A stretch of DNA of 64,000 nt from positions 27,648 through 91,647 of the forward strand of contig CAILUU010000005.1 of assembly GCA_903837525.1 (NCBI GenBank), given 5' to 3'. The DNA comes from an uncultured Bacteroidota bacterium. Its GTDB lineage: Bacteria; Bacteroidota; Bacteroidia; Chitinophagales; Chitinophagaceae. The number at the start of each line of letters is the position of its first letter. Position 1 is the stretch's first letter. The translations under genes and the position numbers were made by a program. This document shows positions 26,088 through 39,950 of this stretch, one piece after another. The notes beneath the pieces were generated by a model, which made no database searches, was not told the origin of the DNA, and was given only the letters and a program-made list of their open reading frames with translations.

Positions 26088-26684
26088 ATGCAAGACTTAG
26101 CCAACCAAAAAATTATTTTAGAAAATAATAGCGTACAGTTAGTACCACTCAACCTTGAGCATACAACTGAATGTATACACTACGCTTTAACCGAACCAAC
26201 TATTTGGCAGTACAGTATGGTAAACCCAGGCGGTAGTGCCTCGCCTATGGAAAGATACATTGCTTTTGCAATAAATGAAAGAATAGAAAATAAAGGCTAT
26301 CCCTTTATAGTTATAGACAAAACTACCAATCAGCTGGCTGGCTGCACTCGTTTTTACGATATTGATTTTAATAACAAAGCCGCTTCAATTGGCTATACTT
26401 GGTACGCGAAAAAATTTCAACGTACTGGCTTAAACCGCCATTGCAAGCTATTACTACTCACCCATGCTTTTGAAGTATGGAATTTAGAAAGAGTAGAATT
26501 TAGGGCCGATATTAATAATACAGCCTCTATTAATGCCATGAAAAATATTGGTTGCATTGAAGAAGGAGTTTTACGTAACCATGCCAATATAGAAAATGGT
26601 AGACGAACATCCATTATTTTAAGCATATTAAAAGATGAATGGTTTGGCGGTGTTAAAGAAAATTTAGTAAAGAAGATTTATTGA
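26088..26684 (+). CDS. GNAT N-acetyltransferase (RimJ/RimL-like)
   Basis: LAGCTRFYDID...KFQRTGLNRHCKLLLL...VEFRADINNTASINAMKNIG. Confidence 0.9.
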   Translation: MQDLANQKIILENNSVQLVPLNLEHTTECIHYALTEPTIWQYSMVNPGGSASPMERYIAFAINERIENKGYPFIVIDKTTNQLAGCTRFYDIDFNNKAASIGYTWYAKKFQRTGLNRHCKLLLLTHAFEVWNLERVEFRADINNTASINAMKNIGCIEEGVLRNHANIENGRRTSIILSILKDEWFGGVKENLVKKIY

Positions 26685-26722
26685 GCATTCCCTTTGTAGC
26701 TTTGCCAAAACGTTTTTTGCAT

Positions 26723-28792
26723 ATGAATAAATTGGGGAACTACATTACGGGTAATTGGATTAATGGTGATGGTGATGGGCAACTTTTATACAATGCTGTA
26801 ACTGGCGAACCTATTTTTAGTACCACTACAAAAGGCTTAGATTTTAAAGCCATGTTAGATTATGGCAGAACTGTTGGTAACCCTGCGTTACGCAAAATGA
26901 CTTTTCATGCAAGAGGAAATATGCTAAAAGCATTGGCCTTGCATTTACAAAAACATTTACCTACGTTTTACGAAATAAGTTATAAAACTGGTGCCACAAA
27001 AGCCGATAGCTGGGTAGATATTGAAGGAGGTATAGGTAACTTATTTGCAAACGCCTCTTTACGAAGAAAATTTCCTGACGATGTAATTTGTATTGATGGT
27101 GAAAGCCACAACCTTAGCAAGAATAATACCTTTATGGGCACACATATTTTAAGCCCTAAAGAAGGTGTGGCAGTACATATAAACGCCTTTAATTTTCCGG
27201 TATGGGGTATGTTAGAAAAAATTGCAGTTAATTTATTGGCTGGTATGCCTGCTATTGTAAAGCCTGCAAGCGTAACCAGTTATTTAACAGAAGCTGTAGT
27301 TAAAGAAATTATAGCAAGCAACATTTTACCCAAAGGTGCTTTACAATTAATTTGTGGTAGTGCTGGCGATTTGTTGAACCATGTTACCAGTCAAGACGTA
27401 GTAACGTTTACAGGTAGTGCAACAACGGGGTTATTATTAAAATCTAACAAAAACATTTTAGAAAATAATACACCCTTTACCGTAGAGGCAGATAGTTTAA
27501 ACTGTATAGTATTGGCAGATGATGTAACACCAGCTATGCCAGAGTGGGATATTTTTATAAAAGAAATTCGAAAAGAAATGACGCTTAAAGCTGGGCAACG
27601 TTGCACCGGTATTAGACGAATTTTTGTACCTCAAAACAAAATGGAAGATGTACAAATAGCCTTAGGTAAAGCATTGAGCCAAACCGTAATTGGTAATCCA
27701 TTAAATTCAACAGTAAGAATGGGTAGCCTTGCAGGCGAAATACAACGTAACGAAGTAAAGGAACAAGTACAAAAACTATTAGCATCTTCACAACTAATTT
27801 ATGGTAGTTTGGATAGTGTAGAAGTGGTAGATGCAGATGCATTGAAGGGTGCATTTATAAGCCCTCTTTTATTATTAAACCAAAACCCATTTAATAGTTT
27901 TGAGCCTCATAATATTGAAGCCTTTGGCCCAGTTAGTACATTAATGCCGTACACGACTATAGATGACGCTATTGCCTTAAGTAAGTTAGGTAAGGGTAGT
28001 TTAGTAAGTACTATTGTAACAGCCAGTGCAAAAATTGCAAGGCAGTATGTTGTAGGTGCTGCAACACATCATGGTCGAATTTTAATTTTAAATAACGAAT
28101 GTGCTAAAGAAAGTACTGGACATGGTAGTCCTTTACCCTTACTTACACATGGTGGCCCAGGCAGGGCAGGTGGCGGAGAGGAAATGGGAGGTATACGTGG
28201 TGTTAAGCATTATTTACAACGTACTGCAATACAAGGAAGCCCCACAACCCTAACAGAAGTTACACAAGTGTATCAACCTAATGCAAAAGGAAAAGATGGA
28301 GGTAAACATCCATTTAAAAAATATTTTGAAGAGCTTGAAATTGGTGAGCAGATTATTACCGAAAAAAGAATCATCACAAGCGAAGACATAGATAAATTTG
28401 CAGACCTAAGTGGCGATAAATTTTATGCCCATTTAAAAGAAACCAATTTTGACGGCACTATGTTTACCCACCAAGTGGCGCACGGCTATTTTATTATGAG
28501 TATTGCTGCTGGGTTGTTTGTAGATAGTTTTGAAAAAAACCCGGTACTCTTAAATTATGGGATAGATGAATTGCGTTTTACAAAACCTGTTTACCCTGGA
28601 GCTGAAGTTTACATTCGTTTTACTTGTAAAGAAAAATTACCCAATGATAAACGCATTATAGAAAACCCCGAAGATTTTAAAAGAGGAGATGATATTGAAA
28701 AAGGAATAGTAAAATGGCTAGTAGAATTTTTGGATGAAACCGATGAAATTACTGGTGTAGCAACAATACTGACGATGGTAGAAAAAAAATAA
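26723..28792 (+). CDS. paaZ: PaaZ-type bifunctional aldehyde dehydrogenase / enoyl-CoA hydratase
   Basis: N-terminal ALDH ([15 protein letters not shown]) plus C-terminal MaoC ([29 protein letters not shown]). Confidence 0.92.
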
Positions 28793-28865
28793 CTGATATA
28801 ACAAGAAGAGTACCTGCCTTAAGACAAATGCTTTCCTGAATTTACCTTAAACAGAACTTGTTGCT

Positions 28866-29034
28866 TTATTCTACCAGTATTTTTTGAACATCTACTTTAT
28901 TTTCACTTATTACCCTCACCATATATTGCCCGGGTGCCAATAAAGTAGCAATATATATACTAATGCTTCCCATAAAGTTTGTTGTATTGCTATACACCAC
29001 CTGCCCAATGGTATTAATAATTTCTGTTTGTAGA
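28866..29034 (-). pseudogene. Remnant of a T9SS type A C-terminal sorting domain
   Basis: Minus-strand LQTEIINTIGQVVYSNTTNFMGSISIYIATLLAPGQYMVRVISENKVDVQKILVE*, preceded by an in-frame stop (ESL*Y). Confidence 0.7.
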
Positions 29035-29189
29035 TATTACAAACTTTCTAGAGTGCATTTTTTGGTTATAAATGATATAAAAAAAATATTCAATATTCAT
29101 TATTTTTCTTTTTTTATTGGTAGAAAGATAATTTTTAAACAGCATTCCAATTACGTTAAAGCCTAAATTTGTAATCTAAATAATTTACA

Positions 29190-29948
29190 ATGGATCAAGC
29201 GTATGTAAAATCAGAAACTCATCAAGGCATTACAACAATCGAATTTTTTCATCCGCAAAGTAATAGCTTGCCAGGTAAAATTTTAGAAGAACTAGCCAAA
29301 GAAATTGACATTGCTGGTACCCATAACGAAACCAATGTTATTATTTTAAAAAGCGCTGGCGACAAAACATTTTGTAGCGGTGCAAGTTTTGATGAATTAA
29401 TGGCTATAAAAAACGAAACCGAAGGATTACAGTTTTTTAGTGGCTTTGCCCATGTAATAAACGCCATGCGTAAATGCCCTAAACTAATTATTGGGCGTAT
29501 ACAAGGTAAATGTGTTGGAGGAGGCGTGGGCCTTGCCGCTTCGGTTGATTATGCCATTGCTACTAATAAAGCCGATGTTAAATTAAGTGAGCTAGCGGTT
29601 GGTATTGGCCCTTTTGTAGTAGGCCCTGCGGTAGAGCGTAAAATTGGTACTGCCGCTTTTAGTGCACTAGCTATTGATGCTACCATGTGGCGTAATAGCG
29701 ATTGGGCAATGCTTAAAGGGTTATTTAGCGAAGTGCATGAAAGTATTGAAAATATGGATGAGGCTATTTTTAAATTATCAAACACTTTAGCCAACTCATC
29801 TCCTCAAGCAATGGCCGAAATGAAAAAAATATTTTGGAAAGATACTGCACATTGGGATGACCTTTTAATTGAAAGAGCAAAAATTAGCGGCAAATTAGTT
29901 TTAAGCGATTTTACAAAACAAGCCATCGAAAAATTTAAGAAAAAATAA
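29190..29948 (+). CDS. Enoyl-CoA hydratase/isomerase family protein
   Basis: FCSGASFDEL, GRIQGKCVGGGVGLAASVDYAIA, KLSELAVGIGP; next to paaZ. Confidence 0.9.
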   Translation: MDQAYVKSETHQGITTIEFFHPQSNSLPGKILEELAKEIDIAGTHNETNVIILKSAGDKTFCSGASFDELMAIKNETEGLQFFSGFAHVINAMRKCPKLIIGRIQGKCVGGGVGLAASVDYAIATNKADVKLSELAVGIGPFVVGPAVERKIGTAAFSALAIDATMWRNSDWAMLKGLFSEVHESIENMDEAIFKLSNTLANSSPQAMAEMKKIFWKDTAHWDDLLIERAKISGKLVLSDFTKQAIEKFKKK

Positions 29949-30014
29949 TCCTTATTCATTTTTCTCTTCAAAACCTATATGGATATAGAATTGTTATCGT
30001 ATCTTTGAAAAACT

Positions 30015-30314
30015 ATGAAAAAGTTATTTGCTTTACTTTTAATAACAGTATTTGTAAGCAGTTCGTTTGTAAAACTTTATAAAGATTTTACAAATGACTG
30101 TAGCATCTCTTTTTCATTATACGATACCGAAGATGATAATGAGGAAAAAGAAATTGAAAAAGACAACGACTTAAAGAAAGATAAAATTATTATTGATTTC
30201 TTAATTTCTTCTCCTTTGGGTTTATCAGAAACTCAAAAATTTTATATTACACATTTATATTTTCTGCCAACCCCCTACATCGCAGAAGACATAATTCCTC
30301 CAAATAAAGCATAG
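30015..30314 (+). CDS. Small secreted acidic hypothetical protein
   Basis: 99 aa, signal peptide MKKLFALLLITVFVSSSFV then DTEDDNEEKEIEKDNDLKKDK; TATCTTTG box 7 nt before ATG. Confidence 0.75.
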   Translation: MKKLFALLLITVFVSSSFVKLYKDFTNDCSISFSLYDTEDDNEEKEIEKDNDLKKDKIIIDFLISSPLGLSETQKFYITHLYFLPTPYIAEDIIPPNKA

Positions 30315-30373
30315 GCTTTACTTCTCTTTTGTGCCTTGTGCATATCTACATTATTTTATACTTTTTATTTATT

Positions 30374-32005
30374 ATGACAAAGAAACGTTTATTTGCCAAT
30401 GCTGGTAAAGATATACCTGCAGGTTTAGTAGTATTTTTAGTAGCACTTCCCCTTTGCTTAGGGATATCAATTGCTAGTGGAGCAACTCCATTTAGTGGTC
30501 TTATTGCTGGTATTGTTGGTGGTTTAGTTGTAGGGGCTTTAAGCAACTCTCCTTTAAGTGTAAGTGGTCCTGCTGCTGGGTTAGCAACATTAGTATCGGG
30601 TGCTATTTTAGCCATTGGCGGTATAGAGCATTTTGATATGTTTTTATGTGCAGTAGTTATTGCTGGTTTAATACAAATTAGCTTAGGTGCTTTAAAACTC
30701 GGTGGTATTGCTAACTACATACCTAGCAGTGTTATTAAAGGTATGCTTACTAGTATAGGTATTTTAATTATTGCCAAGCAAATACCACATGCTTTTGGAA
30801 AAGATAGAGATGATAAAGGCGTAATTACCGAACTTTTTGAGTATGGCAATGAAGATTGGCATGAATTATTAATCCCCTTACAAAATATTGAAATAGGTGT
30901 GTTTTTAGTTGCCATTTTATCAATTATAATAATGGTTTTGTGGGATAAATCTAGTCTAAAAAAGAAACTACCTTTTATACCTAGTGCTTTAGTGGCAGTT
31001 GTTTTTGCTGTTATACTTAATCAACTATGGATTAGTATGAGCAGCAAACTTCAAATAATAGAAAGCTCACATTTAGTAAATTTATCTATTGCAAAATCGC
31101 CAACCGAATTTTTAAGTTTTTTTACATTCCCCAACTTTAGTGGTTTTACAAATAGTACGGTAATTATGTATGGTTTTATTATTGCGATAATTGCAAGTTT
31201 AGAAACCTTGTTAAGTATTGAAGCCGTAGATAATTTAGATCCAGAAAGAAGAGTTACCAATACCAATAGAGAATTGTTTGCACAAGGAGTGGGCAATACA
31301 ATCTCCGGCTTAATTGGTGGCTTACCCATTACTAGTGTTATTGTACGAAGTAGTGCCAATGTAAATGCTGGTGCAAAATCAAAATTATCTACTATTTTTC
31401 ATGCTTCGTTACTACTAGTTAGTGTTATAGCAATTCCTTTTGTTTTAAATAAAATACCTTTAGCCGCTCTAGCCGCAATACTTATACTTACAGGATGGAA
31501 ATTGGCTAAGCCTAAGGTATTTATTAATTTTTGGAAAGCAGGGAAATATCAGTTTATACCATTTATTGTAACCGTAGTGGTCATTATTGCTATCGATCTA
31601 TTTAAAGTATTACCCATATTAAGCGGTAAAGGATTAATCATTGGGGTATTTGCAGGTATAATAGCTGCTATTGGAGCCATATTGCACGGCAACTTAAAAA
31701 ATAGTTATTACTTCAACAAACAAAAGCATAAGGAAGGTGATGTAATAAAAATTAAACTTTCTGAAGAAGTATCTTTTTTAAACAAAGCCTCTATAAGAGA
31801 AACACTTGACCATATGCCTGAAAATTCATCGGTAATTATTGATGCTTCTAATAGTAATTATATTGACTTTGATGTATTAGAATTAATAAAAGAATTTAAA
31901 GATATAAAGGCACCATTAAAAAATATTAACTTAGAGTTATTAGGCTTTAAGGAAAAATATAACATTCATAACGAAACTAGCGTAACATCATCACAAAAAA
32001 AATAA
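30374..32005 (+). CDS. SulP family inorganic anion transporter with STAS domain
   Basis: KDIPAGLVVFLVALPLCLGISIASGATPFSGLIAGIVGG; C-terminal STAS-like VIIDASNSNYIDFDVLELI. Confidence 0.95.
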   Translation: MTKKRLFANAGKDIPAGLVVFLVALPLCLGISIASGATPFSGLIAGIVGGLVVGALSNSPLSVSGPAAGLATLVSGAILAIGGIEHFDMFLCAVVIAGLIQISLGALKLGGIANYIPSSVIKGMLTSIGILIIAKQIPHAFGKDRDDKGVITELFEYGNEDWHELLIPLQNIEIGVFLVAILSIIIMVLWDKSSLKKKLPFIPSALVAVVFAVILNQLWISMSSKLQIIESSHLVNLSIAKSPTEFLSFFTFPNFSGFTNSTVIMYGFIIAIIASLETLLSIEAVDNLDPERRVTNTNRELFAQGVGNTISGLIGGLPITSVIVRSSANVNAGAKSKLSTIFHASLLLVSVIAIPFVLNKIPLAALAAILILTGWKLAKPKVFINFWKAGKYQFIPFIVTVVVIIAIDLFKVLPILSGKGLIIGVFAGIIAAIGAILHGNLKNSYYFNKQKHKEGDVIKIKLSEEVSFLNKASIRETLDHMPENSSVIIDASNSNYIDFDVLELIKEFKDIKAPLKNINLELLGFKEKYNIHNETSVTSSQKK

Positions 32006-32015
32006 TGAAATAAAT

Positions 32016-32699
32016 ATGAAAGCGCATACTAAAGAAACACAAGCCAATTTAACACCCCGAATGGCATTAGAAATATTAAAAGAAGGAAATGATAGATTTT
32101 TAAAAAATTTAAAGAAACAAAGAAATTTATTAGACCAAGTAAACGATACTAGAAATGGTCAATGGCCTTTTGCAACCATATTAAGTTGTATTGATAGTAG
32201 AACAGGAGCCGAGTTAATTTTTGACCAAGGATTAGGCGATATATTTTCGGTACGAATAGCTGGCAATATTGTAAATACCGACATTATAGGCAGTATGGAA
32301 TTTGCTTGTAAAATAGCAGGTTCAAAGTTAATAGTTGTATTGGGACATACAGGTTGTGGTGCTATAAAAGGAGCCTGTGACCATGTAGAAATGGGTAATT
32401 TAACTGAGTTACTTTCTAAAATACAACCTGCAGTATACCAAGAAAATAAGACAAAAAAAGATAGAACTTCTGGGAATGCAGTTTTTGTAGACAATGTAGC
32501 AACAATAAATGTAAAAAGAGCAGCAGAGCAAATTATTGAACGTAGCTATATACTAGAGCAGCTATTAGAAAGTGGTAAAATAGGAGTGGTAGGTGCAATG
32601 TATAATGTTCAAACTGGAAAAGTAAGTTTTTGTAAGGATGTCTTGTATATAAAAGATGAAAAAAACCCAAAATTTTCGTTGGACGATTTTAGAAGTTAA
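32016..32699 (+). CDS. Beta-class carbonic anhydrase
   Basis: CIDSR and GHTGCGAIKGA Zn-ligand motifs. Confidence 0.95.
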   Translation: MKAHTKETQANLTPRMALEILKEGNDRFLKNLKKQRNLLDQVNDTRNGQWPFATILSCIDSRTGAELIFDQGLGDIFSVRIAGNIVNTDIIGSMEFACKIAGSKLIVVLGHTGCGAIKGACDHVEMGNLTELLSKIQPAVYQENKTKKDRTSGNAVFVDNVATINVKRAAEQIIERSYILEQLLESGKIGVVGAMYNVQTGKVSFCKDVLYIKDEKNPKFSLDDFRS

Positions 32700-32710
32700 A
32701 TCAAAAGAAT

Positions 32711-35236
32711 ATGTCAAATAAAATATTTGAGGAGCAGCATGTGCTGCATGAATTAAAACATTACTTACCTACTCAACAGGCGTTAAAAGATTTTATTCAT
32801 CACAATTCTTTACATGCTTTTCAGCATATGAAGTTTTATGATGCTATTAATAAGGCAAGCAAAATTTTTGGTTTTCAGGTTAGTATAGAGCTTAAAGATT
32901 TTAGAGAATTATATAAAACTAAAAGAATAAGAGAAGATATTTTAGATAAAATAATTTCCGAAAAAAAAGGTAGTAATGTTGTAATAGAGTGGAAACAAAA
33001 ATTGCTTAACGCCGAATACGATACTATTAACCAGCCTCGTGTTGGGCAATTGCGTAAATATTGGAAAGAGTATTTTTATATTGATTTAGATAATGAAGTG
33101 CATCCATTATTATTTAGAATTATTTGCAGTTTTTTAGACCAAGGTGTTGCTATAGAAAATTATCCTGTGGCTAATAAATCGTTTATAGAAAGCATTAAAG
33201 ATATTGAGCAAAATAGTTTTGTAAGTTTTTTTAAAACAAAAAAAGTAAAAGAGCTTTTTTTAAGTGGAAATTATTCTATAGAATCTTTATTGCAACTAAT
33301 TGTTGGTAAACAAGAATATTTTGAGCAGTATTTATTTGATCAAGCATTTGCACACCATGGTTGGAGTGGGTTTATAAGTGCGGTGGAAGATAATCCACAA
33401 ACTTTATTAGACCCTAAAAAAATAAATTTAAACGAATTTATTGTTTTTGAATTATTGCTTGAGTTAGATGCACTTAATAATAAGTTAGGTAATAATTGGA
33501 AACCCATTGCAACTGTTACAAAAGAAACAGCAATTGATTTATTTGCCGATGCTCCAAAAAATGAATTAGCCAAAGTAATAGAGATATGGCAAGATGCTTT
33601 TGAATTTAGTTATTACGATACCGTAATGGCTGGAATTTTATTAGCTGGCGGAGAAGATGAGAATGAAAATAAAAAAAGCTTTGCTGCCATTTTTTGTATA
33701 GATGAAAGAGAATGTTCCATTCGTCGCCACATAGAAGCTACAGACAATACTTGTGTAACTTTTGGTGCACCAGGTTTTTTTGGTGTGGAGTTTTATTTTA
33801 AACAGCAAGACAATTTATTTTACGATAAACTTTGCCCTGCACCAGTTACACCTAAATTTTTAATTAAAGAATACGATGCAATCACAAACAAAAAAAGCGA
33901 ACCCATTTATAGCAAAGATGCCCATGGTTTTTTAAGTGGTTTTTTATTAAGTATACCGTTTGGTTTTTGGGCATTTACAAAAAAAATACAGTTATTGTTT
34001 TTTCCTAAAATGAGTCCAGCCATCAGCGATGCTTATTCTCACATGGATAACCAATCTGTTTTAACCATAGAAAATAAAAATGCCAGTGATGTAGAAAATG
34101 GATTGCAAATTGGTTACACCATTGATGAAATGGTAGCCAGAGCCGAAGGTTTTTTACGTGGCATTGGGATGGTTAAAAATTTTGCACCTATTGTGTATGT
34201 TGTAGCACATGGTAGTAGTAGTGCAAATAATCCACACCATGGTGCACATGATTGTGGTGCTTGCAGCGGCAGGCCTGGTGCAACTAATGCAAGAGTAATG
34301 TCGTATATTTTAAATAATCAAAAAGTAAGAGAAGTGCTTGCTGCAAAAAGTATTAACATCCCATCATCAACACAATTTATTGGTGCAATGCATGATACTG
34401 CTGCAGATGTTATGGGTTATTATGATGCTACTATTTTAAACGATGTAAATAAAATTCAACATCAAAAAAATATACAATCGTTTGAAACAGCACTCGATTT
34501 AAATGCAAAAGAACGTAGCCGTCGTTTTGCATCTATCAATACAAAAAACGAATTACAACAAGTACGTAAAGCAATATTAAATCGCTCTGTTTCTTTATTT
34601 GAGCCGAGGCCAGAGCTTGGCCATGGTACAAATACTTTAGCCATTATTGGAAGAAGGGATATGACCAAAGGTTTGTTTTTAGATAGAAGAGCTTTTTTAA
34701 ATAGTTACGATTACAGCACCGATCCCGATGGTGCCATATTAACCAATGTAATGAAACCTATTGGCTTAGTTTGTGGGGGTATTAATTTAGAATATTATTT
34801 TAGTAGGGTTGATAATATTAAAATGGGAGCAGGCACAAAGCTACCCCATAATGTAATGGGTTTGTTTGGTGTAGCCAATAGTAGCGATGGTGATTTACGC
34901 CCTGGCTTACCTTGGCAAATGATTGAAGTGCATGACCCAGTAAGATTATTAGTGATTGTAGAACATAAGCCTGAGGTTGTTTTAAAAGCCATTCAATCAT
35001 CGGATGAAGTTTTTGAATGGTATAAAAATGAATGGGTACACATTGCGGCATTCCACCCTACAGAAAAATGTTTTTACTATTTTAAAAATGGCGTATTTGA
35101 AAAATATATGCCATTAACTAATGCATTAAATACCATTGATGATATGCAAGCTTTTATTGAAAGTGCAAAAGAAATGGAAACTAATCATATTGTACATGCT
35201 ACTAAAGAAAATTTAGAAGTGCATTTGCTAAATTAA
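32711..35236 (+). CDS. dabA: DUF2309 / inorganic carbon uptake protein DabA
   Basis: 841 aa; FCIDERECSIRRHIEA and VAHGSSSANNPHHGAHDCGACSG carry the putative Zn-site Cys/Asp and His/Cys. Confidence 0.92.
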   Translation: MSNKIFEEQHVLHELKHYLPTQQALKDFIHHNSLHAFQHMKFYDAINKASKIFGFQVSIELKDFRELYKTKRIREDILDKIISEKKGSNVVIEWKQKLLNAEYDTINQPRVGQLRKYWKEYFYIDLDNEVHPLLFRIICSFLDQGVAIENYPVANKSFIESIKDIEQNSFVSFFKTKKVKELFLSGNYSIESLLQLIVGKQEYFEQYLFDQAFAHHGWSGFISAVEDNPQTLLDPKKINLNEFIVFELLLELDALNNKLGNNWKPIATVTKETAIDLFADAPKNELAKVIEIWQDAFEFSYYDTVMAGILLAGGEDENENKKSFAAIFCIDERECSIRRHIEATDNTCVTFGAPGFFGVEFYFKQQDNLFYDKLCPAPVTPKFLIKEYDAITNKKSEPIYSKDAHGFLSGFLLSIPFGFWAFTKKIQLLFFPKMSPAISDAYSHMDNQSVLTIENKNASDVENGLQIGYTIDEMVARAEGFLRGIGMVKNFAPIVYVVAHGSSSANNPHHGAHDCGACSGRPGATNARVMSYILNNQKVREVLAAKSINIPSSTQFIGAMHDTAADVMGYYDATILNDVNKIQHQKNIQSFETALDLNAKERSRRFASINTKNELQQVRKAILNRSVSLFEPRPELGHGTNTLAIIGRRDMTKGLFLDRRAFLNSYDYSTDPDGAILTNVMKPIGLVCGGINLEYYFSRVDNIKMGAGTKLPHNVMGLFGVANSSDGDLRPGLPWQMIEVHDPVRLLVIVEHKPEVVLKAIQSSDEVFEWYKNEWVHIAAFHPTEKCFYYFKNGVFEKYMPLTNALNTIDDMQAFIESAKEMETNHIVHATKENLEVHLLN

Positions 35237-35290
35237 TTTCCCTAACTCAAATGCGTTTTTAAAGAAAATTAAGTTTAAAGAAAATATAGA

Positions 35291-37147
35291 ATGAACCAGC
35301 TTTTACCATTATTTATTGTGTTGCCTTTTATTGCATTTATATTCAATTTATTTTTTGCCAATAAAAAAGAAAAAGTAATTGCTGCTATTGCAGAAATTGG
35401 CACAAGCTTATACATTTTGTCTGCTATTAGCTTTGCAATTATGTGGTTTATTAATGGTTACACACCCATCAATCAAAAATTAATTACCTTATACAAAACC
35501 GATGGTTTTGAGTTTGTACTTAATTTTTATTACGATCATATCACAGCTGTATATAGTGTTGTAGGAGCTTTTTTGTTTTTCTTTGTAGCAAGGTTTAGCC
35601 GTTATTACATGCATAGAGATGAAGGGTTTAAACGTTTTTTTAATACCTTTTTATTTTTTCTATTAGGCTTTAATTTAATTATTTTTTCAGGCAATTTCGA
35701 AACCTTATTTATTGGATGGGAAGTTATTGGTTTATCTTCTTTTTTATTAATTGCCTTTTATCGCAACAGATATTTACCTGTAAAAAATGCGTATAAGGTT
35801 TTATCTATTTACAGATTAAGTGATATAGCTTTAATACTTGCTATGTGGATGTTGCATCATCTTACCCATCAAAATATTTCGTTTACACAATTGACAAAGG
35901 CCAGTGCAACTGCGGTAGAACATCAACATACAGGCATGGCATTGTTTATTGCATTAATGTTTGTGTTAGCAGCGGTAGCAAAGTCGGCACAGTTTCCTTT
36001 TACCACTTGGTTGCCAAGGGCAATGGAAGGACCAACAAGTAGCAGTGCAATTTTTTATGGTTCGTTAAGTGTTCATATTGGGGTGTTTGTATTGTTACGT
36101 ACATACCCTTTTTGGCAAGATATTTTGTTAGTAAAGATTATTATTATTTGCGTTGGAGCAATTACCGCCATTGTTTCATCTTTAATTGCAAGAGTACAGC
36201 CAACTGTAAAAACCCAAATTGCCTATGCAAGTGCTGCACAAATTGGTATTATTTTTATTGAAGTAGCAGTCGGTTTGCATTGGTTAGCATTAATTCATTT
36301 TGCTGGTAATGCTTTTTTAAGAACATACCAATTATTGGTATCTCCTTCAGTATTAAATTATTTAGTGCATCATCAATATTTTCATCACACAGCCAACACT
36401 TCAACAGCCGATAACAAATTAAAAAACTCTATTTATACACTCAGTATTAAAGAGTGGAATATGGATAGCATTTTGCATAATTATCTTTGGATGCCGTTTA
36501 AATGGATTGGAAGGCAGGTAGGTTTTTTTGAAAATATTATTGGCAGAGTAATTATTATTGTATTAGGGCTTTTAGCAATTGCTGCTACATTTTTATATCC
36601 AATTATTTTTGAATCTATAAATATTTATTTGCCAATAGCTTTTATGTTAGCAGCTTTGCTTATAATTTTATGTTCATTTTCGTCTCGTAAATCCTCAAGA
36701 GTTGCATGGGGAAATTTATGGATAGCTCATGTATTTATTATTTGTGCTATTGTAAAAAATACAGGCGTATTAAATTGGCAACAAGTAGCTATGTATGCAA
36801 GTGGCGTTACGGTGGCAAGTATAGTAGGCTCAATTTGTTTGTATAAAATTAAAAAAATAGATAGCGATATTAGCCTCAATAATTATCATGGCTATGTGTA
36901 CGAACAAAAGAATACAGCATTTATATTTTTATTATCTGCTTTGGGTTTGTTAGGCTTCCCTATTACAGCTGCTTTTATTGGCATAGATGTTTTTTTTACA
37001 CATATAGGTGCTAATCAATATGCACTAATTGCGTTATTGGCCTTATCCTTTTTGTTCATTGAGTTAGCAGCTATACGAATTTACTTACGCATATTTTTAG
37101 GATTACACAAAAAATTAGATCATCCTGTAGCGTTTAGAAGTAGTTAA
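35291..37147 (+). CDS. dabB: DabB-like NuoL/MrpA-type proton-conducting membrane protein
   Basis: 618-aa polytopic; FIGWEVIGLSSFLLI, AAVAKSAQFPFTTWLPRAMEGPTSSSAIFYGSLSVH; adjacent to dabA. Confidence 0.88.
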   Translation: MNQLLPLFIVLPFIAFIFNLFFANKKEKVIAAIAEIGTSLYILSAISFAIMWFINGYTPINQKLITLYKTDGFEFVLNFYYDHITAVYSVVGAFLFFFVARFSRYYMHRDEGFKRFFNTFLFFLLGFNLIIFSGNFETLFIGWEVIGLSSFLLIAFYRNRYLPVKNAYKVLSIYRLSDIALILAMWMLHHLTHQNISFTQLTKASATAVEHQHTGMALFIALMFVLAAVAKSAQFPFTTWLPRAMEGPTSSSAIFYGSLSVHIGVFVLLRTYPFWQDILLVKIIIICVGAITAIVSSLIARVQPTVKTQIAYASAAQIGIIFIEVAVGLHWLALIHFAGNAFLRTYQLLVSPSVLNYLVHHQYFHHTANTSTADNKLKNSIYTLSIKEWNMDSILHNYLWMPFKWIGRQVGFFENIIGRVIIIVLGLLAIAATFLYPIIFESINIYLPIAFMLAALLIILCSFSSRKSSRVAWGNLWIAHVFIICAIVKNTGVLNWQQVAMYASGVTVASIVGSICLYKIKKIDSDISLNNYHGYVYEQKNTAFIFLLSALGLLGFPITAAFIGIDVFFTHIGANQYALIALLALSFLFIELAAIRIYLRIFLGLHKKLDHPVAFRSS

Positions 37148-37164
37148 CTAATTTACTGTCTTAC

Positions 37165-37896
37165 ATGAAAATATCTATCACCTTTTTTATTGTTTTTCTT
37201 TCGTTGCAATCTACTGCACAAAACGATAGACTAAATGATTATAATAATTTAGTTTGGCTGCAAAGTTTTAATACTATTGCAGGAAATAAAAAGTGGAGTA
37301 TACATGCCGAGTACCAATGGCGGAGAGATAATGGCTTAAAAAATTGGCAACAAAGTTTACTACGAGTTGGTGCAAATTATAAAATAAGTGATAACGTAAT
37401 TGTACATACTGGTTATGCTTGGGTTGAAACATTTTCGTATGGCAAATATCCTATTGCTAACAATGGTACTTTTCCAGAGCATAGAATTTATGAGCAATTA
37501 ACCTTACGCCAACCGCTAAATAAATTTTTACTTACCCATCGATTTAGAGTGGAGCAACGCTGGCTTGGCAAAGTAAAAGCTGGTACAGATAGAGAAATAG
37601 AAGAATGGTTATTTCTTCATCGCTTTCGGTATCAATTTAGAACACAATATTCGTTAAACAAAAAAATGTATGCCGCTGTGGCAGATGAAATTTTTATTGG
37701 TGCTGGTAAAAATGTAGGGGTAAATATTTTTGACCAAAATAGATTGTTTTTATTAGTTGGGTATAAACTAAATAAAAATGTAAATATAGAAAGCGGTTAC
37801 TTTAATCAAACTTTACAACAAGGAAAGCGTATAAATAACCAAACCATAATGCAACGAAATAATGGACTGCTAGTAAGTTGCATTACAAATTTTTAA
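37165..37896 (+). CDS. DUF2490 family outer-membrane beta-barrel-like protein
   Basis: Signal peptide; alternating aromatic strands (WSIHAEYQWRRDNG, LLRVGANYKI, HRFRVEQRW, YKLNKNVNIESGYFNQ); 17 nt after dabB. Confidence 0.8.
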   Translation: MKISITFFIVFLSLQSTAQNDRLNDYNNLVWLQSFNTIAGNKKWSIHAEYQWRRDNGLKNWQQSLLRVGANYKISDNVIVHTGYAWVETFSYGKYPIANNGTFPEHRIYEQLTLRQPLNKFLLTHRFRVEQRWLGKVKAGTDREIEEWLFLHRFRYQFRTQYSLNKKMYAAVADEIFIGAGKNVGVNIFDQNRLFLLVGYKLNKNVNIESGYFNQTLQQGKRINNQTIMQRNNGLLVSCITNF

Positions 37897-38683: not shown

Positions 38684-39950
38684 TTATAAATTCATTAATA
38701 AGTAAACGCCAGCACCCCCAAAAAAGCCAATTAAAGCCAACCAGCTTATCTTTTTTAAATACCAAACAAACGTAATTTTTTCCATACCCATAGCGGCTAC
38801 ACCTGCGGCCGAACCTATAATTAATGCACTGCCCCCAGTACCTGTTGTATAAGCTAAAAACTCCCAAAAGAAATGATCGGTTGGGTATTGTGTTAAGCTG
38901 TACATACCTTGTGCAGCGGCTACTAAGGGTACATTATCTACCACTGCACTTAGTAAACCAATTCCTGTTACAATAGCTGTTTCGTTTTTTACCGTGGCAG
39001 TAAGCCATTGGGCTAGTTGCGTAAGTTGCCCCGTTGCTTGCAAAGCAGCAATACTAATTAATATACCTAAAAAAAAATAAAATACTTGGTGTATCAATAC
39101 GTTGTAATGCTCTTGCCACTGTTAGGCTATCTTTTTCATCATCATCTTTCTGTTTGTGCAAAATTTCGGTAGCAATCCACAATACACCTAAGCCAAATAA
39201 TATGGCCATAAATGGAGGTAAATGTGTTACTGTTTTAAAAATAGGCACAAATAATAAAATACCAATACCTAGGCAAAAAACTAGTGTTCGCTCAAACTTA
39301 GGCCGAAGAGTATGATTTGTGTTTTTAGATGATGGCTGGATAACTCCTTTTAACCTAAAAGAAACAATAATTAGGGGCAAAAGCAAACAAACAACACTTG
39401 GTAAAAAAAGCATTTTAATTATTTGACCTGCAGTAATTTGATTACCAATCCAAAGCATGGTGGTTGTAACATCTCCCAACGGGCTCCAAGCACCGCCTGC
39501 ATTGGCAGCAATAACTGTAATACCTACAAAAAATAATCGTTGCTCCTTATTATCTATTAATTTGCGTAGCAGCGATACTATTACAATTGTTGTAGTAAGG
39601 TTATCTAGTACTGCACTTAAAAAAAAGGTTAGTCCGCCAATAATCCAAAGTAGTTTAACCGCACTTTTGGTTTTTATACGTTCCGTAATTACTTCAAAGC
39701 CATCATGGGCATCTATTAGCTCTACCACCGTCATTGCGCCTAATAAAAAAAACAAAATACCAGCTAATTCGCCTAAGTGTTCCATTAATTGATGGCTTAC
39801 TACTTGCTTATTAGGTGTAAATAAAATATAAACTGTCCAGCAAAGTACACCAGTTACCAATGCGGTTGCAGCTTTATTAATATTTATGTTGTGTTCAAAA
39901 GCAATAGCAAAATAACCTAGTATAAATATGACGATAATAGCAATAGACAT
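38684..39950 (-). pseudogene. nhaD: NhaD-type Na+/H+ antiporter, split by a frameshift into ORFs 39054-39950 (N-term) and 38684-39097 (C-term)
   Basis: LSAVLDNLTTTIVIVSLLRKL, ANAGGAWSPLGDVTTTMLW in N-part; LLSAVVDNVPLVAA in C-part; A9 run 39069-39077. Confidence 0.88.

Follow-up and report, generated by a model that had tools for sequence, protein, structure and literature searches.

An inorganic-carbon operon of Chitinophagaceae bacteria, its separate class of DabAB and the candidate regulatory nascent peptide at its head

There is a genuine inorganic-carbon operon, conserved and of a known kind, in the window (the whole 64,000-nt stretch of DNA that was analysed, from contig CAILUU010000005.1 of the assembly GCA_903837525.1 of an uncultured Chitinophagaceae bacterium, Bacteroidota), and it is accompanied by a distinct class of DabAB and by a specific, unnamed leader open reading frame (uORF), which is its most interesting part (Table 1). 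Our preferred reading, which we consider probable on balance, is that this is a heterotroph's inorganic-carbon supply operon, serving carboxylation and controlled by a nascent-chain leader. Tentatively, and with some doubt, we also put forward a more far-reaching proposal, in which the SulP, beta-carbonic anhydrase (CA) and DabAB genes of the Chitinophagaceae are controlled by an exported uORF peptide stalling at PP(P)[N/D/E], and in which this peptide would govern, in the Dab-bearing members, a second class of complex, linked to protons and hydrating CO2, with an active site and a proton path unlike those of DAB2.

Table 1. Features of the operon and its leader in the window (numbering from the first nucleotide of the window).
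Feature	Positions	Strand	Evidence
Promoter -7-like box TATCTTTG (TAnnTTTG), ending 7 nt upstream of the uORF start	30000..30007	+	
uORF, 99 aa, candidate regulatory nascent peptide	30015..30314	+	positional counterparts, motif
Codons CCT CCA AAT (Pro95-Pro96-Asn97), putative stalling motif, three residues before the TAG stop	30297..30305	+	
Leader gap from the uORF stop to sulP, with weak hairpin TGTGCCTTGTGCATA	30315..30373	+	p 0.033 versus shuffles
sulP, anion transporter of the SulP family, presumably importing bicarbonate	30374..32005	+	PF00916 (Sulfate_transp), 212.6 bits
beta-carbonic anhydrase, signal peptide not apparent	32016..32699	+	Pro_CA, 135.7 bits; NF011765
dabA, type II, Zn site intact	32711..35236	+	PF10070, 664.7 bits over 2-747/747
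dabB, type II, NuoL-like, 618 aa	35291..37147	+	Proton_antipo_M/N, 127.4/34.7 bits
DUF2490 protein, sporadic operon passenger	37165..37896	+	PF10677, 163.2 bits

The identities of SulP, beta-CA, DabA, DabB and DUF2490, all on the same strand as originally predicted, are in agreement with Pfam, and the gaps of 10, 11, 54 and 17 nt between them (from SulP to DUF2490) are found again when the ORF coordinates are re-read. The Zn motifs of DabA, as seen in the alignment with DabA2, and the CxDxR/HxxC motifs of the CA (CIDSR and HTGC in the translation) are also intact, as had been claimed. The label SulP-STAS holds for its SulP part, and no STAS domain scores in Pfam at E<=1e-3. The open frame of sulP begins at TTG 30329, and ATG 30374 is the likelier start. 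The genome of the window (2.17 Mb in 55 contigs, listed as 100% complete) was predicted to be without visible autotrophy genes; this stands for RuBisCO, the sole autotrophy gene searched, which is absent in the genome-wide search. The DabA of the operon is the only one of the genome, as is its beta-CA (Pro_CA gene), and the genome has several genes for carboxyltransferases like those of acetyl-/propionyl-CoA carboxylases. The proposal that the locus supplies carboxylases is plausible, carboxyltransferase genes being present in this genome without RuBisCO, and the clustering of SulP, CA, DabA and DabB is kept in relatives.

This clustering was compared in 36 named loci and 31 further stretches from the family and the phylum. 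DabA scores above the Pfam cut-off in 5 of 61 genomes of the family and in 30 of 396 of the phylum, and the named carriers of the closest DabA relatives are Chitinophagaceae (for example, Ferruginibacter, Terrimonas and Flavisolibacter). SulP and/or CA are encoded immediately 5' of dabA in all 36 named relatives, as the original prediction would have it. A fixed order SulP-CA-DabA-DabB is rejected, as the order upstream of dabB is SulP-CA-DabA in 16 of these 36 loci and, about equally often, CA-SulP-DabA (15 loci), with SulP or CA alone in the other 5. The predicted module of six genes is not fixed either: DUF2490 lies immediately 3' of DabB in only 4 of the 36 named relatives (L041, L048, L056 and L057) besides the window, it is widespread in the family (44 of 61 genomes), and SulP is near none of 30 DUF2490 loci. 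DUF2490 is therefore rejected as a conserved sixth gene and as a SulP partner, and the module claim can be kept for the four core genes but not for DUF2490.

Some further genes were observed around the operon. Just upstream of it in the window (26681-29948) are the genes of an enoyl-CoA hydratase and of a PaaZ-like fusion protein; the hydratase recurs by the operon in eight loci and PaaZ in L039 and L046. On the minus strand (38684-39950) there is an NhaD-type Na+/H+ antiporter in two overlapping ORFs (39054-39950 and 38684-39097), with an apparent frameshift, and L041, L049 and L053 carry intact NhaD-like genes (~424 aa) on the 5' side of the operon. A carboxyltransferase gene (G000:C33:19242-20722, in L108 and L109) is likewise split into two overlapping frames, which may reflect indel errors in the assembly of the window genome.

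No part of the unit is as specific as its first gene. This gene was originally described as a flanking, secreted acidic protein; the small ORF is indeed present, and it looks like a regulatory uORF rather than a flanking secreted protein. As judged from its sequence, it is quite probably a regulatory nascent peptide. The encoded peptide has a hydrophobic N-terminus (mean hydropathy of 2.46 over 16 residues, the signal segment being judged from hydropathy alone), an acidic spacer and the C-terminus AEDIIPPNKA-stop; the corresponding C-terminus in L044 is AFHGELLVPPPNLA. Searches with the uORF in Pfam and NCBIfam give no convincing family match, and the leader has no match in Rfam. Of the 33 named loci in which the 5' flank can be read, 32 have a positional counterpart, the exception being L064. 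In the alignment of 26 uORF sequences the only invariant columns are M1, P95 and P96. The C-terminal Pro-Pro pair is three residues before the stop in 23 of the 33 loci (two to six in all of them), and it is followed by Asn in 24, Asp in 4, Glu in 3, Lys in 1 and Leu in 1 (N/D/E in 31 of 33). All four proline codons are used (33 CCC, 29 CCT, 19 CCA and 17 CCG), which shows that selection acts on the protein sequence. Pro-Pro occurs within the last 12 residues of 40 of 117 small ORFs with a hydrophobic N-terminus, versus 7 of 588 long ORFs.

The linkage of the peptide to its neighbours is also seen when the neighbours are disregarded in the search. The profile of the main-clade peptides, run against 150 Chitinophagaceae genomes, matches in 35 of them, which exceeds the share that carries DabA. 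SulP or beta-CA is encoded downstream of the peptide in 29 of 30 examined loci, the last of which ends 57 nt past the uORF, and where the flank is readable SulP or CA is the next gene in all 29 loci found by the profile. All 30 peptides found in this way end with PP or PPP, followed by Asn (16), Glu (8), Asp (5) or Lys (1). The peptide thus has a linkage to SulP/CA of its own. The uORF of the window is divergent: it is missed by the main-clade profile and was assigned from its position and motif. Since its leader is also short, the case rests on the family, and both properties of the window uORF count against the preferred reading.

The main-clade peptides are also conserved in mid-sequence, in the segments NPFGNNTEEKAP and SEEYLHD, as in a working protein, which likewise counts against the preferred reading. 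The small protein could be an accessory subunit of SulP or of SulP-CA, either membrane-anchored or periplasmic, with the PPPN end as a docking or sorting tail; these middle segments, the specific linkage to SulP/CA and a conserved C-terminus, which suits a docking tail too, all agree with such a role. We nevertheless regard it as rather unlikely, since the small ORF is always the first gene and the gap behind it is long and bears hairpins, in contrast to the closely spaced genes within the operon, and since across divergent members only the Pro-Pro pair and a polar residue persist. Moreover, Pro-Pro followed by Asn, Asp or Glu is a ribosome-pausing context; in Escherichia coli, PPN and PPD are strong pause motifs and, among the PPX sequences, fall exclusively in the pausing set (PMC4140641).

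Five further small ORFs in the compared loci have a hydrophobic N-terminus and end in TPPPN or TPPPD (L039 16899-17180, L053 16963-17250, L062 16981-17268, L071 18086-18406 and L060 13832-14158), and in four of these five loci an ABC transporter gene from an exporter-like cluster comes next; such leaders may be a more general theme in Chitinophagaceae. In L070 (686-1075), a small ORF ending in LRAPPSLL (RAPP-type) lies directly 5' of another ORF, outside the Dab operon.

The 5' flank of the uORF suggests where the transcript begins. The consensus of the -7 promoter element in Bacteroidota is TAnnTTTG. A box of this kind starts 12-20 nt before the uORF in the window and in four relatives (L039, L063, L066 and L068), so that transcription probably starts at the uORF, as judged from this element. 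Within 260 nt upstream of the uORF such a box is found in 12 of 33 loci, the control frequency being 8.8%. A scan for sigma-70 promoters, which is uninformative for Bacteroidota, gives fewer matches than shuffled sequences.

The gap between the uORF and the first gene of the operon has a median length of 115 nt, versus 18 nt between the operon genes (p ~1e-13); in the window it is shorter than in most relatives. The leader hairpins are more stable than those of dinucleotide shuffles (mean z of -2.5 in 30 loci), and the excess is also found in the set obtained with the peptide profile (mean z of -1.9 in 28 loci, a few of which are from the same lineages as the first set). The 100% pairing in the extracted hairpins is by construction, and the evidence consists only of these z-scores and of the hairpin positions: one is located ~20 nt past the uORF stop, and in the CA-first loci a second one, with a stem sequence that varies among them, usually terminates 15-21 nt ahead of the start codon. 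A simple intrinsic attenuator between the uORF and the operon was considered and rejected, as there is no consistent T-run past the hairpins and none was called there in the window.

The SulP of the operon is presumed to import bicarbonate. It could also carry sulfate or another anion, its proximity to CA and Dab then reflecting pH or anion balance: PF00916 does not allow the substrate to be predicted, the best match among solved structures is 6ki1, labelled a low-affinity sulfate transporter, and the score with the BicA model NF050096 (127 bits) is far under the equivalog cut-off of 880. We consider this very unlikely, as no sulfate gene is found among the families recurring in at least five of the compared loci, and as the SulP-CA pairing recurs, also without Dab, in the loci from the peptide-profile search. 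SulP-CA fusions, moreover, were reportedly proposed as bicarbonate transporters by Felce and Saier in 2004.

The CA of the operon passes NF011765 (256.6 bits, with a cut-off of 221). A second, divergently oriented beta-CA gene, absent from the window genome, lies ~560-930 nt upstream of the operon in 14 relatives (L038, L040, L041, L042, L044, L045, L049, L051, L052, L053, L060, L067, L071 and L073). From the energetic point of view, a free cytoplasmic CA next to an accumulator is surprising, as it should leak CO2, yet this arrangement is conserved in the family; it is possible that the internal CO2 production of respiring cells is one reason for it. In Staphylococcus, co-expression of MpsAB and CA gave no benefit (PMC8552792), which, like the expected leak, counts against the preferred reading.

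In the tree of the sampled DabA sequences there are two groups, with one very long, fully supported branch between them; these are referred to as type I and type II, names coined in this analysis for a comparison that includes DabA2. Type I includes DabA2 of Halothiobacillus neapolitanus (the DAB2 complex, DabA2/DabB2, PDB entry: 9rd0), has the gene order dabB-dabA and carries S356, A376, mostly E444, and L658; no SulP or CA was found near type I dabB-dabA in the compared loci. Five haloarchaeal and proteobacterial plasmid copies have the type I residues and order, with a LysR gene beside dabB in four of them. Type II (44 sequences, the window included) has the order dabA-dabB. In six type II loci in which dabA is the first gene (L090, L091, L092, L095, L098 and L099), a different small ORF lies directly upstream and ends in an LYxLFHSWK-like motif near its stop; it is possibly a second leader class.

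The window complex is like DAB2 in its DabA and DabB families, in having a NuoL-like DabB encoded beside DabA, and in the Zn ligands and the Asp-Arg dyad: C329, D331, R333, H500 and C515 align with C351, D353, R355, H524 and C539 of DabA2, and the Cys/His/Cys ligands and the dyad are kept in all 44 type II DabA sequences. With its full-length DabA, these residues and the adjacent DabB, the window complex belongs to the family of complexes accumulating dissolved inorganic carbon (DIC), and it is a putative energy-coupled inorganic-carbon accumulator, as judged by sequence. It differs from DAB2 in the reversed gene order, in the adjacent SulP and CA genes and at four positions of DabA, where E334, P354, I415 and H638 correspond to DabA2 positions 356, 376, 444 and 658 (Glu for Ser356, Pro for Ala376, no Glu444 and His for Leu658). 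Among the type II sequences, Glu356 is found in 43 of 44, Pro376 in 42 of 44 and His658 in 44 of 44, and the column of the finger residue Glu444 has Glu in none of the 44. The window DabB (~620 aa, versus 551 in DAB2) keeps NuoL E144. E144, R175, D178 and K231 are each conserved in all 44 type II DabB sequences, and D566 in all 43 that are readable there, the alignment of D566 to the region of NuoL D400 coming solely from a weak phmmer segment. For DAB2, Glu444 is reported to be essential, Leu658 to be strictly conserved among 150 homologues, and the loss of the NuoL TM5 Glu in DabB to be an adaptation (PMC13144422). The window complex thus falls outside the DAB2 subtype on three hallmarks (Glu444, Leu658 and a DabB without the NuoL TM5 Glu), and the missing Glu444 counts against the preferred reading.

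The absence of Glu444 and the presence of His658 in every type II sequence, where beta-CAs use Gln or His, would also suit a carbonic anhydrase that is linked to the membrane and more freely reversible, or a device for balancing CO2 and protons, in place of an energy-driven, one-way hydrator of CO2. This reading is unlikely: the L658Q variant of DAB2 works in vivo without having CA activity in vitro (PMC13144422), so that reversible CA activity does not follow from His658 alone, and the NuoL charged pathway residues kept in type II DabB argue for retained proton coupling. Energy-coupled CO2 hydration stays the preferred function of the complex, in which type II DabB may conduct protons in a more NuoL-like way and DabA may use a beta-CA-like His. 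No description of the type II class was found in the searchable literature. It provides a natural variant for testing the published claim that Glu444 is the proton-coupling residue of DAB complexes, and it likewise makes testable the published claim that Leu658 is a fixed feature.

Taken together, the operon would work as follows. The locus would be one transcription unit supplying DIC to a heterotrophic Chitinophagaceae bacterium, in which SulP would import bicarbonate, type II DabAB would convert entering or respiratory CO2 into bicarbonate, driven by the proton gradient, and the cytoplasmic beta-CA would interconvert CO2 and HCO3- for biotin-dependent and other carboxylases. Transcription would start right before the uORF, whose nascent chain would be targeted to the membrane and would carry a stalling motif of the Pro-Pro-Asn type just before its stop. 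Stalling, or its release by the pulling force of export or by another signal, would then set the transcription or translation of the SulP/CA/Dab genes; secretion status, the proton gradient, pH, a metal and CO2/HCO3- are candidate signals. We know of no nascent-chain regulator of CO2/bicarbonate supply, and little is known of how heterotrophs sense and set their inorganic-carbon supply. If the proposal is true, regulation by arrest peptides reaches beyond protein export and copper and includes carbon supply, across a bacterial family.

Among the known systems, MpsAB of Staphylococcus aureus is alike in being a homologue of this type of complex (DAC) in a heterotroph, where, according to published work, it is used for growth in air; a SulP-CA operon was not found described for MpsAB in the searchable literature. 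For the leader, the closest parallels are with arrest peptides. The uORF shows the four features by which arrest-peptide uORFs have been screened (Fujiwara 2024, PMC10987492), being small and without an annotated function, with an N-terminal signal/TM segment (from hydropathy), a spacer of >30 residues and a conserved C-terminus, and it is a candidate for arresting ribosomes and regulating the next gene. These features are common to uA_LPPP and the other Sec/YidC arrest uORFs of that study, and uA_LPPP, whose stalling was mapped to its xPPP motif (PMC10987492), shares this motif with the uORF family; the likeness is without demonstrated homology, and the Sec/YidC uORFs head secA, secDF or yidC, whereas the present family heads SulP/CA/Dab. 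CutF, at the head of the cutF-cutO operon of Rhodobacter capsulatus (PMC9973294), is also an exported nascent peptide with a proline-rich C-terminal motif and a leader stem-loop, a likeness that is functional, without demonstrated homology. CutF has a CxxxC copper motif, whereas the window uORF has a single Cys. The CutF stem-loop masks the ribosome-binding site of the next gene, a role for which the hairpins described here give no clear sign by their position, since in most CA-first relatives they stop 15-21 nt ahead of the start codon; in the window the hairpin is weak. CruR (DUF2946) of Bordetella pertussis (PMC9426467) has RAPP and CXXC motifs, both absent from the window uORF, and none of 26 uORF members matches DUF2946; that the motif is not RAPP counts against the preferred reading. 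CruR is nevertheless alike as a small exported protein with a C-terminal proline motif, in which Pro-Pro is three residues from the end, and as the first gene of a transport operon, from which it is separated by a long intergenic gap.
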